DNA of 64,000 nt, from positions 1 through 64,000 of the forward strand of contig JAJYVF010000005.1 of the NCBI GenBank assembly GCA_021792135.1. Direction: 5' to 3'. Position 1 is the first letter of the stretch, and each line of letters opens with the position of its first letter. Source of the stretch: Acidobacteriota bacterium. GTDB taxonomy: Bacteria; Acidobacteriota; Terriglobia; Terriglobales; Acidobacteriaceae. Below, piece by piece: positions 9,547 through 18,548 of this stretch. The notes under the pieces are model-generated. The model did no database searches. It worked only from the letters and a program-made list of their open reading frames with translations, and was not told where the DNA came from. A program made the position numbers and the translations under genes.

Positions 9547-9621
9547 TGGTGGGCGCAGCAGGATTCGAACCTACGACTTCCACCGTGTGAAGGTGGCACT
9601 CTACCGCTGAGTTATGCGCCC
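9547..9621 (-). tRNA. tRNA-Val (anticodon CAC)
   Basis: On the minus strand a full cloverleaf can be drawn. The acceptor stem GGGCGCA pairs with TGCGCCC, and the D stem is ACTC/GAGT. The anticodon stem CCACC/GGTGG encloses loop TTCACAC with anticodon CAC. The T arm holds GGTTCGAAT. The discriminator is A and the 3' CCA is encoded (9547-9549). It decodes GUG valine codons. Confidence 0.97.
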
Positions 9622-9752: not shown

Positions 9753-10568
9753 ATGGCCCCTCGCAACCCGTCGCCACTTCCCGACGATCTGCCTCGCCGG
9801 TCTCCCGAAGAGGAGGAGGAGGAGGAGAATCCATCTCCGGAAGAATGGGAAGACAAATCGGAAGTTTTGCCGCAACCTGACGACCCGGACGGGGTTAGCA
9901 GGGATATGGCAAGCGTCGCACTGGATCCCGGATGGCTGCAGGGCGCCTCCGCGCCGGTGCCCCGATCGGGCCCGGTGAGCTGGAGCGCCATGAGCGACGC
10001 GGAAATCATGCTCCGCGTGCGTGCGGGCGAGGACGGCGGCTTCAACTTCCTGATCGAGAAGTACCGTAAGCCGATCATCAACTTCATGTACCGCATGGTC
10101 CACAACCAGGCCGTGGCCGAGGAGCTGGCGCAGGAGGTCTTCCTGCGCGTCTACCGCTCGCGCGAAACCTACCGCGCCGAGGCGAAATTCTCGACCTGGC
10201 TGTACCGCATTGCCACCAATCTGGGCGTGAACTACGCGCGCGACACCAGGAACGAGCGGACGGCGCAGAACATTTATCTGGACCAGCCCGATCCGGAGAC
10301 AGGCACCACGCCGGATGTCGCCGACAGCCGCCCCGGCGCCGAAGACGAACTGGTGCGCGAGGAGCGGATGCGGGCCATCCGCAGGCACGTCATGGCCCTG
10401 CCCGAACGCCAGCGGACCGCGGTGCTGATGCATAAATATCAGGGACTGGACTATAAGGAAATCGGTGCAATTTTGCACCTCAGCGAGTCGGCCACCAAAT
10501 CGCTGCTCTTCCGGGCCTATCAGACGCTGCGCGAGCGGCTGAAGGAATTTGTTCAGGAGAAGAATTGA
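9753..10568 (+). CDS. ECF-type RNA polymerase sigma factor
   Basis: A 271-residue protein. Sigma region 2 spans LIEKYRKPIINFMYRMV to FSTWLYRIATN (residues about 95-160). Region 4 spans ALPERQRTAVLMHKYQ and YKEIGAILHLSESATKSLLF near the C-terminus, the DNA-recognition helix-turn-helix. It lacks regions 1 and 3, as in ECF sigma factors. The N-terminal about 80 residues are acidic and Pro-rich (a run of seven Glu), longer than usual; internal ATGs at 9906 and 9990 are alternative starts. Seven bases downstream begins an anti-sigma gene, so the pair likely forms a signal-responsive sigma/anti-sigma switch. Confidence 0.93.
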   Translation: MAPRNPSPLPDDLPRRSPEEEEEEENPSPEEWEDKSEVLPQPDDPDGVSRDMASVALDPGWLQGASAPVPRSGPVSWSAMSDAEIMLRVRAGEDGGFNFLIEKYRKPIINFMYRMVHNQAVAEELAQEVFLRVYRSRETYRAEAKFSTWLYRIATNLGVNYARDTRNERTAQNIYLDQPDPETGTTPDVADSRPGAEDELVREERMRAIRRHVMALPERQRTAVLMHKYQGLDYKEIGAILHLSESATKSLLFRAYQTLRERLKEFVQEKN

Positions 10569-11914: not shown

Positions 11915-12841
11915 TCACCGCCGCAGCAAATTCCGCGCCAGGAACACCACATTCGCAGGGCGCTCCGCCAGCCGGCGCATGAAGTACGGATACCACTGGT
12001 CTCCAAAGGGCACATAGACCCGTACCCCATACCCTTCGCGTACCAGCATCCGCTGCAGATCCCGCCGCACGCCGTACAGCATCTGGAACTCAAAGCTGCT
12101 CCGGTCGACCCCCTCCGCCTGCGCGAATTCCCGCGTGGCCGCGATCATCCCCTCGTCGTGCGTAGCGATCCCGTGAAAAAGGCCGCTCTTCAGCAGCGCC
12201 TTCATCAGCGCCACGAAGTTTCGGTCCACATCCTTCTTATCCGGAAACGCGACCTCCGGCGGCTCCTGGTACGCCCCTTTGCACAGCCGGATGCGGATGC
12301 CGTCGGCCAGCAGCGCCGCCACGTCTTCGGCGCTGCGCCGCAGATACGCCTGGATCACGATTCCCACGTGATCGCGGTTCTCGGGGATGGCGTGCACCCG
12401 CCGCACCAGCTTGATCGTGGTTTGGGTCAGCGCCGACCCTTCCATATCCACACGCACGAAGCTGCCCGCCTCCGCGGCATGGCGCACCAGTCCGGAGACG
12501 ATTTCCCCGGCCAGATCGGGGCTGACTTCCAGCCCCATCTGGGTCAGCTTCAGACTGATATTGGCATTGAGTTTCGACTGCGCCAGCGCGTCCAGCAGCC
12601 AGTGATACACCTGAGCCGCCTGGCGTGCCTGCGCTGGCGAAGTCACGTTCTCGCCCAGGCTGTCCAGCGTGACGGCCAGCCCCTGCGCGCCCAGCGCCGT
12701 CGCTGTGCTCATCGCGTCTTCAATCCGAAACCCGGCCACAAACCGCGACGACAGGCGGCGGCCCATGGAAGACTGCTCAGCAAAGCGGCGCAGGCGACGG
12801 TTTCCCGACAAGGCAATAAAGGCAGAACGCAGAAGAGGCAT
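11915..12841 (-). CDS. Proline dehydrogenase
   Basis: A monofunctional FAD-dependent proline dehydrogenase of 308 residues, which oxidises L-proline to pyrroline-5-carboxylate at the membrane and feeds electrons to quinone. Motifs for a TIM-barrel ProDH are visible: NISLKLTQMGL, VRVDMEGSA, VIQAYLRRS, IRLCKGAYQEP, GIATHDEG, FEFQMLYGVR and VRVYVPFGDQWYPYFMRRLAERP. The start MPLLRSAF at 12841 gives the length seen in Bacillus/Thermus-type enzymes; an ATG at 12868 is possible. No pyrroline-5-carboxylate dehydrogenase is next to it. Confidence 0.95.
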   Translation of the reverse strand: MPLLRSAFIALSGNRRLRRFAEQSSMGRRLSSRFVAGFRIEDAMSTATALGAQGLAVTLDSLGENVTSPAQARQAAQVYHWLLDALAQSKLNANISLKLTQMGLEVSPDLAGEIVSGLVRHAAEAGSFVRVDMEGSALTQTTIKLVRRVHAIPENRDHVGIVIQAYLRRSAEDVAALLADGIRIRLCKGAYQEPPEVAFPDKKDVDRNFVALMKALLKSGLFHGIATHDEGMIAATREFAQAEGVDRSSFEFQMLYGVRRDLQRMLVREGYGVRVYVPFGDQWYPYFMRRLAERPANVVFLARNLLRR

Positions 12842-13187
12842 GTGAGTCCGCTGTAAGCAAACGTTCATTCTTTCACAGCGCTCCCGCTTTCCCGGGCAAT
12901 TTTCACAGGAATTTGGCATGGACCGCCCCAAAACGGGGAGCACAATCGAATCAACCGCCGTCCGTCATGATGAGCGGAAGATTCTCCAGGGTTTCCGCTA
13001 TGGGAAACGAGGCCAGGCCAGGGTGCATCTCAAGGACGAGAACTCGATAACTTGCTGATCGTATTGCGGGAGATTCCAGGGATGCCGTTTCCCGCAGGTT
13101 CCGGAAAGGCAGCAGCGCTGAAAACTCTTCCCGCTTATTCGGCAGCGAGCGGGAGCCTCGGAAGCGCAGATCGTTGGAGATGGTTGG
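12842..13187. other. 346-bp intergenic stretch; no gene supported
   Basis: This lies between divergent genes. A minus-strand ORF (12951-13232) overlaps the start of the small zinc-ribbon-like gene and has no family resemblance. Small inverted repeats such as GTTTCC/GGAAAC are present, but nothing that I can name. Confidence 0.4.
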
Positions 13188-13455: not shown

Positions 13456-13484
13456 TTGACCCGGAGCCCGAGGCGACCTATAGT
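13456..13484 (+). promoter_or_regulatory. Sigma-70-type promoter of the cys operon
   Basis: TTGACC (13456-13461) and TATAGT (13479-13484) are separated by exactly 17 bases, a near-consensus housekeeping promoter. The expected transcription start is about 13490-13492, coinciding with the ATG of the leader peptide at 13491. Confidence 0.75.
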
Positions 13485-13490
13485 AAAGCA

Positions 13491-13568
13491 ATGAGTTTTG
13501 CCCCCACCCCGGCCGTTTGTTGCGCATGTTGTTGCGTGATGCCGGGCTTGTGGGGTACGAAGCTTTAA
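13491..13568 (+). CDS. Cysteine-rich leader peptide of the sulfate assimilation operon
   Basis: A 25-codon ORF reading [20 protein letters not shown] and then WGTKL. Five of six consecutive codons (10, 11, 13, 14, 15; bases 13518-13535) encode Cys, the end product of the downstream pathway. It has no room for a Shine-Dalgarno sequence: the promoter predicts transcription beginning at or next to its ATG, so translation is probably leaderless. It overlaps RNA strands that pair in the attenuator, so the peptide is likely a cysteine sensor and not a functional protein. Leaderless poly-cysteine ORFs that control sulfur genes are known in mycobacteria; this would be an independent acidobacterial case. 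It is too short for ordinary gene callers. Confidence 0.85.
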
Positions 13569-13599
13569 AGATAAGTTTCGAAAGCATACCCAAAAGCCC
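13502..13599 (+). promoter_or_regulatory. Attenuator pairing regions: protector (1:2) and antiterminator (2:3) stems
   Basis: Strand 1 (CCCCAC 13502-13507, CCCGGC 13508-13513) pairs with strand 2 (GCCGGG 13541-13546, GTGGGG 13550-13555), a 12-bp stem with a 3-base bulge whose loop contains all the Cys codons. Strand 2 can instead pair with strand 3: GGGCTT 13544-13549 with AAGCCC 13594-13599, GGGTA 13553-13557 with TACCC 13587-13591, and GCTTT 13562-13566 with AAAGC 13581-13585. That second structure takes up the left arm of the terminator. Stalling at Cys codons would block strand 1 and favour 2:3 (read-through). A ribosome reaching the stop at 13566 would block strand 2 and favour termination. 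Confidence 0.8.
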
Positions 13600-13635
13600 G
13601 CGTTTCAGCTCTTCGCTGACGCGGGCTTTTTGTTT
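13592..13635 (+). terminator. Intrinsic terminator (attenuator 3:4 stem) upstream of cysD
   Basis: GCCCGCG (13596-13602) pairs with CGCGGGC (13620-13626), then, after a TT bulge, TCAGC (13605-13609) pairs with GCTGA (13615-13619), leaving a 5-base loop. A T-tract TTTTTGTTT follows at 13627-13635 and A residues precede the stem. This is a textbook Rho-independent terminator placed 28 bases before the cysD start, so it must be conditional for the operon to be expressed. Confidence 0.9.
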
Positions 13636-13662
13636 CTGTCGGAAGTTCACCAGGGAGCCAGC

Positions 13663-14643
13663 ATGACACAGACGCCAGTCCTCGACGCTGCCGGACAGCA
13701 CCCAATTCAGTCCAATGGCCTCGATCCGCGCAGGGTTTCCGCCTCCAGCCGCCTGACCCACATGCAGCTGCTCGAGGCCGAGAGCATCCACATCATCCGC
13801 GAGGTTGCCGCCGAGTTCCAGAAGCCGGTCATGCTCTACTCCATCGGCAAGGACTCCTCCGTGATGCTGCGCCTCGCCCAGAAGGCCTTTCATCCCGGAC
13901 CGGTCCCGTTTCCGCTGCTCCACGTCGACACCGGCTACAAGTTCCGCGAGATGCTCGTATTCCGCGACCGCTATACCGCCGAGCTGGGGCTGAAGCTCAT
14001 CGTCTGGCGCAACGAGGACGCCATCGCCGCCGGAGCCAATCCCATCGCCCTCGGCACCCAGCGCTGCTGCGGCCTGCTCAAAACCCAGGCGCTGCTCGAC
14101 GGCCTCCGCGCCCACGGCTTCGATGCCGCCTTCGGCGGAGCCCGCCGCGACGAGGAGAAGTCCCGCGCCAAGGAGCGCATCTTCTCCTTCCGCGATACCG
14201 CCGGCCAGTGGGACCCCAAAAGTCAGCGCCCCGAGCTATGGAACCTCTTCAACGGCCGCATCGGTCCCGGCGAGAGCATCCGCGTCTTTCCGCTCTCCAA
14301 CTGGACGGAGCTCGACATCTGGCACTATATCCACCTCGAAAACATCCCCATCGTCCCGCTCTACTTCGCCAAAGAGCGCCGCATGCTGGTGCGCGGCGAA
14401 AGCCTCATCCCCGTCGAGCAGCCCTTCGTGAAGGGCCTGCCCGGAGAAGAGCAGTGGGTGCGCTGCCGTCTGCGCTCCCTCGGCTGCAGCCCCTGCACCG
14501 GAGCGATCCGCTCCGATGCCGACACCGTCCCGAAGATCATTGCCGAGCTGATGGCCATGCGCAATTCCGAACGCGCCAACCGCGTCATCGACCACGACCA
14601 GGACGGCTCCATGGAAATCAAGAAGCGCGAGGGCTATTTCTGA
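13663..14643 (+). CDS. cysD: Sulfate adenylyltransferase subunit 2
   Basis: A 326-residue ATP sulfurylase catalytic subunit that makes APS from ATP and sulfate. It has the PP-loop nucleotide motif ([11 protein letters not shown], about residues 62-72), [22 protein letters not shown] and [11 protein letters not shown], all diagnostic of CysD. The start at 13663 follows AGGGAG and opens with the usual variable N-terminus; the frame is open further upstream into the terminator but that part is not coding. Its TGA overlaps the cysN ATG (TGATG), so the two subunits are co-translated. Expression is probably set by the upstream cysteine attenuator. Confidence 0.98.
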
Positions 14644-16283
14644 TGCCGATCCTCGAAGAAAATCCCCTCCTCGTGACCGATGCGTCCCCAGTCTCGCCCA
14701 GCATCGAAGAGCTGCTCGAAGCCGAGCGCGGTAAGGACCTGCTGCGCTTCAGCACCGCGGGCAGCGTCGACGACGGCAAGTCCACCCTCATCGGCCGCCT
14801 GCTTTACGACTCGCGCAGCGTCTACGACGACCACGTCCGCTCCGTTACCCGCGACTCGGCCATCGACTTCGCCCAGCTCACCGACGGCCTCCGCGCCGAG
14901 CGCGAGCAGGGAATCACCATCGACGTCGCTTACCGCTACTTCTCCACCGCCAGGCGGAAGTTCATCATCGCCGACACCCCCGGCCACGAGCAGTACACGC
15001 GCAACATGGCCACCGGCGCCTCGACCGCCGACGTCGCCATCGTGCTGGTCGACGCCCGCAAGGGCATCCTCGACCAGACCCGCCGCCATACCTGCATCGC
15101 GTCGCTGCTCGGGATTCCGCTGGTCATCGCCGCCGTGAACAAGATGGATCTCGTCGGTTTCTCCAAAGAGGCCTTCGATCGCCACAGCCAGGATCTTCAG
15201 GCGCTCGCGCGCCGCCTCGAAATTCCGCAGCTCATTGCCATCCCGGTCAGCGCGCTCGATGGCGACAATGTCGTGCATCGCAGCCAGCGCACGCCATGGT
15301 ACGGCGGTCCGAGCCTCCTTGAGCTGCTGGAAACCGTGCCCCTCGCCATCGAAAGCTCCCGCGCCGGCTTCCGCCTTCCCGTCCAGCGCGTCATCCGCCC
15401 TCATCAGGATTTCCGCGGCTTTGCCGGTCAGATCGCCGCCGGAACCATCCGTCCCGGCGACGAGGTCATCGCCCTCCCCTCAGGAGTTCGCACGCGCGTC
15501 CGCGCCATCTCCACCTGGGAAGGCGATCTCGATGTCGCTCGCGCTCCGCAGTCCGTCACCCTCACCCTTGAAGACGAAGCCGACATCAGCCGAGGCGACA
15601 TGATCGCTGCCGCCGATGCGTATCCCCAGCGCGCCACCCGTCTCGAAGCCACCCTGGTCTGGATGCAGTCGAAGCCGCTCCGCCCAGGCGCAACGTATCT
15701 GCTCAAACACACCACGCAGACGGTGCGCGCCACGGTCGCGGAGATACGCTCCCGCATCGACGTCGAGCACCTCGAACACCGCTCCGCCGCTCATCTTGAT
15801 CTCAACGCCATCGGCCAGGTGCTGCTCGAAACCAGCCGCCCCCTGCTGGTGGACCTTTACCGCGAGAACCGCGCCACCGGCAGCTTCATTCTCATCGATC
15901 CCGGCGACAATGCCACGGCCGGCGCCGGCATGATCCGCGCCTTTCCCGATTCTTCAGGTCACACGCATCGAAGCGGCGCCCTCGTCGTCCTGGGTCACCG
16001 CTCCGAACTTGCTGCCGAACTCGAAGGCCGCCTCCTGGCAACCGGCGCTCTGGTGCTCCGTACCCGCGTGCCTGAACGCGCCGCGCTTCTGCCGCTGGTC
16101 CACGCCGGAGCCGTGATTCTTGCCGAAAACACCGTACCCCAGGCTCCGTATATCACGCTGTACGGCCACAGCACTCCGCACACCTTCGAGCTCCCACCGG
16201 CCGAAACCGCCGAATCCATCCTGGACGAACTCGGGCGCGCCGGCGTCATCCCTGAAGAAGGGGCCTGGAGATGCCCCGGTTGA
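14643..16283 (+). CDS. cysN: Sulfate adenylyltransferase subunit 1 with a degenerate C-terminal APS-kinase-like region
   Basis: A 546-residue regulatory GTPase that drives APS synthesis with CysD. GTP motifs are G1 GSVDDGKST (about residues 39-47), G2 region REQGITIDVAYR, G3 DTPGHEQY and G4 NKMD. EF-Tu-like beta domains follow to about residue 430. The last about 105 residues (from SGALVVLGHRSELAAELEG) match the start and end pattern of an APS kinase but lack the GxxGxGKST loop: GHRSELAAE stands in its place and the middle is shortened. I infer a decayed CysC domain, so this is not a working CysNC bifunctional enzyme. The following reductase is of the APS type, which needs no APS kinase. Confidence 0.93.
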   Translation: MPILEENPLLVTDASPVSPSIEELLEAERGKDLLRFSTAGSVDDGKSTLIGRLLYDSRSVYDDHVRSVTRDSAIDFAQLTDGLRAEREQGITIDVAYRYFSTARRKFIIADTPGHEQYTRNMATGASTADVAIVLVDARKGILDQTRRHTCIASLLGIPLVIAAVNKMDLVGFSKEAFDRHSQDLQALARRLEIPQLIAIPVSALDGDNVVHRSQRTPWYGGPSLLELLETVPLAIESSRAGFRLPVQRVIRPHQDFRGFAGQIAAGTIRPGDEVIALPSGVRTRVRAISTWEGDLDVARAPQSVTLTLEDEADISRGDMIAAADAYPQRATRLEATLVWMQSKPLRPGATYLLKHTTQTVRATVAEIRSRIDVEHLEHRSAAHLDLNAIGQVLLETSRPLLVDLYRENRATGSFILIDPGDNATAGAGMIRAFPDSSGHTHRSGALVVLGHRSELAAELEGRLLATGALVLRTRVPERAALLPLVHAGAVILAENTVPQAPYITLYGHSTPHTFELPPAETAESILDELGRAGVIPEEGAWRCPG

Positions 16284-16285
16284 GC

Positions 16286-16368
16286 AGCCGCTCGTGGAAG
16301 AGCGGCTTTGAAGGGGCGCGGCGTTGGCCGTGCCATAAACCCTGAAATATAAATGGGGCTTCAGCCCC
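16286..16368. repeat. Three consecutive palindromes between cysN and cysH (REP-like)
   Basis: Hairpin A is AGCCGCTC 16286-16293 with GAGCGGCT 16300-16307. Hairpin B is GGCGCGGC 16315-16322 with GCCGTGCC 16327-16334. Hairpin C is GGGGCT 16355-16360 with AGCCCC 16363-16368. The compact palindromes separated by a short AT-rich spacer look like dispersed intergenic REP-type units. Hairpin A could also attenuate transcription into cysH or protect the cysDN mRNA. Confidence 0.55.
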
Positions 16369-16385
16369 CGAGGGAAGTTTTTCCG

Positions 16386-17060
16386 ATGAACCTTGCCGAG
16401 CAACCCGAAACCAAAGCCGCCCAGGCGCTGAATTTCCTGCGCGAGTACATGACGGCCGACGCCTGCGTCACCAGCAGCTTTCAGGCCGAAGACGTCGTCG
16501 TCCTTCATCTCGTCCGCGCGATTCTGCCCCAGGTGCCGGTGCTCTTTCTCGAAACCGGCTACCACTTCCCGGAGACCCTCGCTTATCGCGACCGCATGGC
16601 CGCCGAGTGGAATCTGAACCTGATCAACGTGCTTCCCAGGAGCACCGTCGCCGAGCAGGAAGCCCAATTCGGCATCCTCAACCAGACCGCCCCCGATCGC
16701 TGCTGCGCCATGCGCAAGGTTGAGCCGCTCTTCCGTGCCCTCGCCGATTTCCGTGTCTGGGTCACCGGTCTGCGCCGCCAGCAATCGAAATCCCGCGCCA
16801 ACCTTCAGCTGGATGAGATCTTCACCCTGCCCACCGGGCAATCGCTCCGCAAGCTCAGCCCGCTCACCGACTGGACCACCCGCGACGTGTGGCAATATGC
16901 CGAAGCGCACCGGATTCCTCTGCTGCCGCTCTATGATCTGGGCTACACCAGCATCGGCTGCGCCCCGTGCACCAGCCTGCCCCTCGATCCCAACGATCCC
17001 CGCTCCGGCCGCTGGGGCGGCAACAAGCTGGAATGCGGCATCCACATCCAGCCGGCCTGA
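16386..17060 (+). CDS. cysH: Phosphoadenylyl/adenylyl-sulfate reductase, probably APS type
   Basis: A 224-residue reductase converting (P)APS to sulfite with thioredoxin or glutaredoxin electrons. SSFQAEDVVVLH, LETGYHFPETL and GLRRQQSKSRA mark the PAPS-reductase fold. The CC motif (DRCCAMRK, about residue 105) plus CAPC (about 200) are the four ligands of the [4Fe-4S] cluster that distinguishes APS reductases from cluster-free PAPS reductases. The C-terminal ECGIH holds the catalytic Cys. It is third in the cys operon, 102 bases after cysN, across the palindrome cluster. Sulfite reductase is not in the window. Confidence 0.95.
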   Translation: MNLAEQPETKAAQALNFLREYMTADACVTSSFQAEDVVVLHLVRAILPQVPVLFLETGYHFPETLAYRDRMAAEWNLNLINVLPRSTVAEQEAQFGILNQTAPDRCCAMRKVEPLFRALADFRVWVTGLRRQQSKSRANLQLDEIFTLPTGQSLRKLSPLTDWTTRDVWQYAEAHRIPLLPLYDLGYTSIGCAPCTSLPLDPNDPRSGRWGGNKLECGIHIQPA

Positions 17061-17183: not shown

Positions 17184-18548
17184 ATGAATTTTACGAGGCA
17201 ATGGACACACGCCCTGACGGCTGCGCTAACGATTCTGTTGTTGGCAGGCGGAGCCCCGCAGAAGGCCGGCGCAGAGGATAATGGCCTTGAGCGCACCCCC
17301 CTTCTCGGCTGGAGCAGCTGGAGCTTCCTCCGCAAGAGCCCCACCGCCGCAGCGATGAGAGCGCAGGCCCTCGCCCTGCACAATTCCGGTTTGCAGGAAC
17401 TCGGCTACGAGTACGTTAACCTCGACGATTTCTGGTATCAGTGCCCGGGCCCCCAGGGTCCCAACGTCGATGCTTATGGCCGCTGGGTCACCGACGCGGC
17501 GACGTTCCCCCCCCAGGGCGATAACGATGGCATGAAGGTCCTCGCCGACTACGTCCACAGCCTCGGGCTGAAGTTTGGCATCTACGTGACGCCGGGTATT
17601 TCCAAACAGGCAGTCAGCCGGAACACGCCCATCAAAGGTACGCACTACACTGCTGCCCAGATTGCGGAGCCCTCCGTGGAGGAGGACAACTACAACTGCA
17701 AAGGCATGGTCCGCATTAACTACGGCAAGCCCGGAGCGCAGCAGTTCATCAATTCATGGGCCGATATGCTCGCCGCCTGGGACGTCGATTTCGTCAAGAT
17801 CGACGGCATGAAAAACAGCAATGCCCCGGACGTGAAGGCATGGTCGAATGCGATCCGGCAAAGCGGGCGCCCCATGGTCCTCGATGTCACACAGGGAAAT
17901 TTCACCAGTGCGATCGCTTCGACTTTGATCCAGTACGCGAATCAATGGGTCTTCGCGCCGGACGTTGAATGCTACCGCTGCGAAAAGAACGGCAGCAGTT
18001 ACCCGCTGACCAGCTGGACCGATATAGCGAAACGCTTTCGGTATGTGGCGGAGTCGCAGCCTTTTGCTGGTCCGGGCCATTTCACCGACTATGACTCCAT
18101 CGAGGTAGGCAATGGCAGCAACAACGGGCTGACTCCGGTTGAGCGTCAGACGCAGATCAGCCTGTGGGCCATGGGAGCCGCGCCCCTCATCCTCGGTGTC
18201 GATCTGACGCACCTGGACAAGACGGATCTGGATAAATACCTCAAAAACACCGCAGTCCTCGCCGTGGACCAGGATTCCATCGCCGCCAAAAGGGTGATCG
18301 ATTCGGGCAACCAGCAGGTCTTCGCGAAGAAGGAAGCGAACGGAGAGGTCATCGTCGGCCTGTTCAACACCGGCGGTACCGCGCAGGAAGTCTCGGTGCC
18401 GGCATCCGCCGCGGGCCTCTCCGCGAACGCAGGCGGCTACTCCTTACACGACCTGTGGACCGGGGAGAGGAAGAAAGCAGACAGCACCACCATCCACGCG
18501 GTCGTCCCGGCGCATGGGGTGGTCCTGTACCGCGTCCGGGCAATGTGA
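17184..18548 (+). CDS. Secreted glycoside hydrolase family 27 (alpha-galactosidase type)
   Basis: A 454-residue exported enzyme: signal peptide (LTAALTILLLAGGAPQKAGA), then TPLLGWSSWSFL and ELGYEYVNLDDFWY, the GH27 opening. DFVKIDGMK about residues 205-213 carries the nucleophile Asp, and an Asp in APDVECYR about residue 260 is the probable acid/base. A C-terminal beta-sandwich (from about residue 370) ends near VVLYRVRAM. It should release alpha-galactose (or alpha-N-acetylgalactosamine) from polysaccharides. A palindrome at 17134-17155 may be its operator. Confidence 0.92.
   Translation: MNFTRQWTHALTAALTILLLAGGAPQKAGAEDNGLERTPLLGWSSWSFLRKSPTAAAMRAQALALHNSGLQELGYEYVNLDDFWYQCPGPQGPNVDAYGRWVTDAATFPPQGDNDGMKVLADYVHSLGLKFGIYVTPGISKQAVSRNTPIKGTHYTAAQIAEPSVEEDNYNCKGMVRINYGKPGAQQFINSWADMLAAWDVDFVKIDGMKNSNAPDVKAWSNAIRQSGRPMVLDVTQGNFTSAIASTLIQYANQWVFAPDVECYRCEKNGSSYPLTSWTDIAKRFRYVAESQPFAGPGHFTDYDSIEVGNGSNNGLTPVERQTQISLWAMGAAPLILGVDLTHLDKTDLDKYLKNTAVLAVDQDSIAAKRVIDSGNQQVFAKKEANGEVIVGLFNTGGTAQEVSVPASAAGLSANAGGYSLHDLWTGERKKADSTTIHAVVPAHGVVLYRVRAM

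Follow-up and report, generated by a model that had tools for sequence, protein, structure and literature searches.

The stretch of DNA analysed here, which we call the window, is 64 kb long and comes from a 5.1-Mb genome whose nearest named cysD relatives are acidobacterial. On its forward strand it carries cysD, the small subunit of sulfate adenylyltransferase (13663-14643; NF009214 and TIGR02039), cysN, the large subunit (14643-16283; NF003478 and TIGR02034), and cysH of the phosphoadenylyl-sulfate reductase family (16353-17060; NF002537 and TIGR00434), all with model matches above cut-off; the start of cysN is approximate and lies inside an ORF at 14208-16283. The neighbouring genes encode a sigma-70-family factor (9753-10568), a proline dehydrogenase (11915-12943) and an alpha-galactosidase-like protein (Melibiase, 17184-18548), there is a tRNA nearby at 9550-9621 on the reverse strand, and no link to sulfur is visible in any of them. 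Before cysD-cysN-cysH, at 13456-13634 on the forward strand, lies a cysteine attenuator-like element, and it is real.

The element begins with a sigma-70-type promoter, TTGACC at 13456-13461 and TATAGT at 13479-13484 with a spacer of 17 nt, which matches the consensus in 10 of 12 positions; shuffles of the 1.1 kb that were scanned give a mean of 0.2 such promoters. Its predicted transcription start is at about 13491, and there an ORF of 25 codons begins (13491-13568) that has homologues in relatives, is not preceded by a Shine-Dalgarno (SD) sequence and encodes Cys at codons 10, 11, 13, 14 and 15. These presumed regulatory codons, TGT TGC GCA TGT TGT TGC at 13518-13535, show third-base covariation in relatives. 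They form the sole cluster of at least five Cys in six codons on both strands of the window, and 60 Markov-simulated single strands contained a mean of 0.0 such clusters. Further downstream is an intrinsic terminator (13592-13634), with a stem at 13592-13630, a core at 13595-13627 and a T tract to 13634. Promoter, peptide and Rho-independent terminator, with its left arm overlapping strand 3, are as the original prediction had described them. The SD sequence of cysD, AGGGAG, is found at 13652-13657.

Folding places the leader 5.7 standard deviations below its dinucleotide shuffles (z = -5.7) and yields three competing pairings, 1:2, 2:3 and 3:4, that are mutually exclusive. Strand 1 (13502-13513), which is also conserved, pairs over 12 bp with 13541-13555; this stem had been predicted exactly, but the Cys codons, which it was thought simply to loop out, sit within an inner 8-bp hairpin (13519-13526 with 13533-13540). 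Strand 2 (13541-13557) pairs with strand 1, or with strand 3 (13587-13603) once strand 1 is masked. An alternative stem had been proposed for 13544-13566 with 13581-13599, and there is one, but the folded pairing of this antiterminator is 13541-13557 with 13587-13603, and in the window copy a local hairpin, CGAAGCUU/AAGUUUCG (13558-13580; stem 13558-13565 with 13573-13580), forms its apex. Strand 3 contains the 5' arm of the terminator. A generic terminator scan is at chance level here, finding one sub-stem at 13612-13625 against 1.1 expected, so the terminator call rests on folding and conservation.

Similar leaders are widespread among relatives. We screened about 350 nt upstream of 80 oriented cysD loci, whose records carry acidobacterial names apart from L044, titled Rhodanobacteraceae, and L068, titled Verrucomicrobia. 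An ORF of 10-45 codons with at least four Cys in six codons is present at 42 of the 80 (L044 among them), against 2/80 on the reverse strand and 1/80 in shuffled sequence, and at a relaxed threshold of at least three Cys the numbers are 50, 12 and 1. The loci with a Cys ORF before cysD include Occallatibacter, Acidipila, Granulicella and Edaphobacter. In a separate screen no Cys leader came up at L048-L050, which are Bryobacterales loci (L048 and L050 were also read directly). More distant acidobacteria (L064, L070, L075, L076, L077 and L083) have a different leader type before cysD, with a terminator, a CACCC motif and a partly conserved C-terminal part; one of them is a MAG labelled gp6 (L076), where a Cys leader and then a terminator precede cysD. 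In Granulicella, Edaphobacter, Acidipila and others there is also what we call the second leader type, and its 2:3 pairing is often no better than in shuffles; over the leader types unlike that of the window, such tests of 2:3 have a mixed outcome.

A covariance model of the window leader (R1) matches 95 places in 73 of the 398 genomes of the family, a lower bound because the model is lineage-specific and strictly filtered, and the 12 genomes of the window's genus all have at least one match. All 95 places were inspected, six loci repeating a place having been removed; in 85 of them a Cys leader ORF begins where the model does, and the 10 without one are left out of all counts on 85 leaders. 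At L230, where the match is to the terminator side of the model and no Cys ORF begins at the model start, the gene that follows is siroheme-synthase-like (TP_methylase, Sirohm_synth_M). Across the 85 leaders the Cys codons are mainly TGT (318, with 148 TGC), unlike those of cysDNH in the window, where 13 of 13 are TGC.

The position of the promoter tells how the leader is likely to be translated. The -10 box puts the predicted +1 on the A of the leader ATG, six bases past the -10. An mRNA with such a start would be leaderless, and the window leader is probably translated in this way. An exact TTGAC is found in 77 of the 85 leaders, and in 67 its first base lies 35-37 nt ahead of the start codon, a placement that arises by chance in 0.2% of shuffles; in a smaller set of 49 distinct leaders (out of 69 rows) the corresponding counts are 44 and 43. 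Before the starts of these 49 leaders the mean anti-SD energy is -2.43, weaker than the -3.27 of shuffled sequence, and only five reach -6 or below, whereas the downstream genes have a clear SD in 37/45 cases and a mean of -6.56. In the second leader type (n = 19), 17 have an exact TTGAC at 35-39 nt and no leader start has an SD at -6 or below, but there the downstream genes have one in only 1/19. A strict pattern of promoter plus ATG matches the window leader alone in the 5.1-Mb genome; it misses the second copy of the leader in this genome, whose -10 is TAGTAT. The probable leaderless start, the conservation and the occurrence before several operons go beyond what was originally predicted.

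The pairings are conserved together with the ORF. The 18 closest leaders can be aligned from the ATG to the U tract, the ATG and the terminator core are invariant among them, and all 18 keep a GC stem and T tract, with a 5' arm complementary to strand 2. For each of 1:2, 2:3 and 3:4, cognate arms bind better than arms swapped between leaders: 0, 1 and 0 of 5,000 permutations do as well with n = 18, and 0 of 10,000 in each case with n = 38, but these permutations ignore relatedness, and with n = 38 a minor helix at the 5' end also reaches 0/10,000. The 38 are what is left of 46 non-redundant leaders (from 69 rows) after eight that failed the segment pattern. For 27 base pairs selected from the 1:2 and terminator stems, 94% of the pairing is standard, against 31-51% in slid versions of the structure, and doubly changed pair cells number 20 against 8.1 in shuffles. 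When one counts the pairs in which both sides have changed, a slide by -2 does as well as the structure (6). Two measures are equalled by some shuffles (21/500 and 26/500). Compensatory changes, which were to be looked for in all three stems, are found in 1:2 and in the inner hairpin but not in the terminator helix, which has no covarying pair and in which five of the eight pairs never vary.

Between strand 2 and strand 3 many relatives also have a conserved AGACUCAG, to which their 5'-terminal AUGAGU(CU) is complementary (columns 2-7 with 89-94 of alignment A2; window positions of about 13495-13499 with those directly past 13580). This pairing shows little covariation, and it may lock the start codon when the ribosome is absent.

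The most rational explanation of the element is a cysteine-sensing transcription attenuator of the ribosome-mediated, trp type, acting through a probably leaderless poly-Cys leader, and from sequence and folding we put the probability of this at about 0.88. RNA polymerase would start at the A of the leader AUG, and a ribosome would load on the 5'-terminal AUG without an SD sequence and translate close behind the polymerase. With ample Cys-tRNA(Cys), it would reach the stop codon and mask strand 2; the 3:4 terminator could then form, and transcription would end near 13631. When Cys-tRNA(Cys) is scarce, the ribosome would stall at the first Cys codons and mask strand 1, the 2:3 pairing would hold the 5' arm of the terminator, and the polymerase would enter cysDNH. 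Without any translation, 1:2 together with 3:4 would keep the operon off.

The folds are consistent with this scheme. When strand 1 is masked in the nascent window RNA, the lowest energy belongs to the fold with the 2:3 antiterminator, which holds the terminator 5' arm, and with the ribosome at the stop codon the terminator alone forms. A ribosome placed at the first Cys cluster leaves the terminator 5' arm sequestered by half or more in 80 of the 85 leaders, and one placed at the stop does so in 12; mean sequestration is 0.74, against 0.46 when the upstream RNA is shuffled. At equilibrium, however, the window terminator prevails in all the ribosome positions that were folded (pair probabilities of at least 0.976), and antitermination must thus be kinetic. 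According to the folding, a ribosome stalled at Cys15 would cover part of strand 2, and the outer antiterminator would be lost. A Cys-rich leader ORF, exclusive 1:2, 2:3 and 3:4 stems and a terminator before the first structural gene are structural features of the trp-type class, and all were found computationally. The cysteine logic of the original prediction is supported as well by their recurrence in relatives, where Cys codons, exclusive stems and terminator come back with compensatory changes.

The same architecture could also work at the level of translation. Leaderless poly-Cys ORFs are the arrangement of mycobacteria, where attenuation is reported to be translational, and a stalled ribosome might free a hidden ribosome-binding site of cysD, with the hairpin only as a side feature. 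The SD of cysD in the window is in fact partly paired in each state folded. By the criterion used, no terminator is detected in 4/24 leaders of the second type and 2/9 others, nor at the Cys-rich ORFs before cysD in Terriglobus roseus (L053) and Granulicella sp. S190 (L051), which are possibly a translational version of the leader. In the folds made, which are of the window only, stalling does not expose the SD, which argues against the mycobacterial mode, and an SD-sequestration switch in the window is rejected by folding; the GC stem, T tract and complementary 5' arm of the 18 closest leaders speak against it too. We consider the translational reading improbable.

Even less probable is that the leader peptide is itself a functional small protein, for instance a metal- or thiol-binding peptide, that is co-expressed with cysDNH while the terminator merely tunes the ratio of the two. 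CC-A-CCC or close variants of it recur in the peptide at many loci, but the C-terminal half is not conserved as a peptide between the window and its relatives, the ORFs are between 17 and 27 codons long, and the third positions of codons are under constraint from base pairing. Several of the changes are in the third bases of Cys and Ala codons, and covariation lies inside the helix formed by the Cys codons. In strand 2 of the window, the loss of one base alters the C-terminus of the peptide by a change of frame while the RNA arm is kept, and it thus seems that selection acts on the RNA rather than on the leader peptide. That a constitutive terminator or an unrelated 5' RNA element such as a riboswitch or T-box has come to stand beside a chance Cys-rich ORF is the least credible reading, since it agrees with the chance-level result of the generic terminator scan by itself but is contradicted by the covariation within the Cys codons, by the 42 cysD loci and 85 model matches before mostly sulfur-related genes, and by the lack of any Rfam family at gathering score at the site. 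The simulation and the same two counts reject a chance origin of the Cys cluster. A known Rfam RNA at the site is rejected as well: the best sub-threshold match is Leu_leader, with 21.7 against 50 bits, and in the Rfam scan of the window the tRNA at 9550-9621 alone passes the gathering threshold.

The proposed transcription attenuator is not confined to cysD. The source genome has a second poly-Cys leader with terminator outside the window (C58:111781-111916; L171:482-617), 66% identical to the first and placed before a reductase of NIR_SIR type. The matches of this reductase to models for ferredoxin nitrite reductase and for NirA are below cut-off, and we read it by context as a sulfite reductase. 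A search of the source genome with a Cys-cluster pattern was too unspecific to be of use, with 60 matches against 41 for the reversed pattern. Relatives have up to three copies; in Occallatibacter savannae, one precedes cysD, another a reductase and the third a receptor-like gene. By tblastn, the first recognised target of the 85 leaders is a NIR_SIR-type (sulfite/nitrite-type) reductase in 38 cases, cysD in 19, a receptor-like outer-membrane protein in 15, a YeiH-type protein in 7, cysH in 4 and a peroxiredoxin in 2. Thirteen of these targets were set by hand, those of YeiH and peroxiredoxin type then being checked by tblastn, and the label of the window target was corrected from cysN to cysD. 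Domain scans covered representatives, namely the reductase of L171 (NIR_SIR), the receptor-like proteins of L180 and L184 (OMP_b-brl_4 and CarboxypepD_reg), the YeiH-type proteins of L234 and L242 (Cons_hypoth698, with TIGR00698 below cut-off), the peroxiredoxins of L221 and L228 (AhpC-TSA), an Rrf2 gene and L230; the other targets are assigned by tblastn similarity.

The outer-membrane targets with OMP_b-brl_4, which we take to be TonB-dependent-receptor-like, show no plug domain in the proteins scanned (Pfam: OMP_b-brl_4, CarboxypepD_reg). They follow the leaders L168, L180 (a protein of 1055 aa with OMP_b-brl_4), L181, L182, L184, L186, L203, L205, L209, L210, L213, L215, L219 and L227, and also L183, where an Rrf2-family gene that matches the CymR model below cut-off precedes the receptor-like gene. 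A Cys leader before such proteins suggests a sulfur-regulated uptake. The YeiH-type targets, putative sulfate exporters, are those of L224, L234, L235, L237, L239, L242 and L243, and in six of these seven a receptor-like gene is next. At L221 and L228 the leader stands before an AhpC/1-Cys-peroxiredoxin gene, which perhaps links thiol defence to cysteine supply.

In 76 of the 85 cases, against 24 expected by chance, a leader and its nearest relative are followed by genes of one kind, and the copies have thus probably diverged long ago and been inherited with their target genes. We hypothesize that in Acidobacteriaceae they make up a cysteine regulon without a regulator, in which paralogous, leaderless poly-Cys transcription attenuators, duplicated within genomes, would let each target operon sense Cys-tRNA(Cys) directly. 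Among others they would control the activation of sulfate and the reduction of sulfite, a YeiH-type transporter and a dedicated receptor-like protein of the outer membrane for organosulfur uptake; we put the odds of this at even, somewhat lowered by the lack of a plug domain in the receptor-like proteins scanned. In the work on mycobacterial poly-Cys leaders, the term ribulon is reportedly used.

Leaderless polycysteine short ORFs of mycobacteria are said to be the subject of Canestrari et al. 2020, Mol Microbiol 114:93. Leaders of related design are already in print: leaderless poly-Cys ORFs in mycobacteria, Cys codons with a terminator in Rhodobacterales, and leaderless starts with a terminator, for other amino acids, in Streptomyces. 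The novelty that was originally suggested holds in part: searches of the openly licensed literature gave, among the matches listed, no Cys leader from an acidobacterium, but similar leaders have been published from other bacteria. According to a review and two papers, the mycobacterial ORFs attenuate translation of the downstream genes (PMC9031893, PMC9094748, PMC13236596). They share with our leader the leaderless start (here predicted), consecutive Cys codons, a place before cysteine or sulfur genes and several loci per genome, and differ in that the acidobacterial terminator and 2:3 antiterminator point to transcription attenuation. The acidobacterial leader apparently resembles them in start and signal, judged from sequence and folds, but not in output, and the two belong to different phyla, the likeness being one of architecture. 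Seliverstov et al. 2005 (PMC1262725) describe Cys-run short ORFs upstream of cys operons or cbs in Mycobacterium, Propionibacterium acnes and Bifidobacterium longum. They report no conserved terminator hairpins for the Mycobacterium leaders, in contrast to the conserved terminator of the acidobacterial leader.

The uORFC-8-2 of Rhodobacterales, upstream of cysS, has tandem Cys codons, two stems and a terminal U run, and it is proposed to be a ribosome-mediated attenuator (PMC8632094). As given there, it has two Cys codons at about 14-15, whereas the leader described here has five, is probably leaderless and occurs at several loci; it precedes cysDNH, in a genome with acidobacterial cysD relatives, and is not a cysS leader of Rhodobacterales. 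The leaders of trp, leu and thr type (Rfam Trp_leader, Leu_leader, Thr_leader) are alike in the peptide with regulatory codons and in the exclusive 1:2, 2:3 and 3:4 stems, but differ from the acidobacterial one in its probably leaderless start and its Cys signal, and the Rfam matches are sub-threshold and on the terminator side only. There is no Trp-rich leader ORF in the 600 nt upstream of trpE in the source genome. In Streptomyces lividans, LeuL2, TrpL1 and IlvL are leaderless leader peptides followed by terminators of Rho-independent type (PMC8079986). These actinobacterial attenuators reportedly respond to Leu, Trp or branched-chain signals, and the acidobacterial one would respond to Cys. 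For Acidobacteria, the excerpted text of one survey has almost no predicted attenuators with associated functions (PMC2965389), and that of another reports a peak in leader-gene distance before structural genes, with cysteine not mentioned in it (PMC4833913).

The device would unite two known designs, leaderless poly-Cys sensing and attenuation by an intrinsic terminator, and it would be copied across a regulon. For the bacteria that have it, the leader is a testable handle on sulfur nutrition, and it marks outer-membrane proteins of unassigned substrate as probable sulfur-uptake genes. If the regulon reading is true, the receptor-like protein would be a route of organosulfur uptake that is marked only by its Cys leader.
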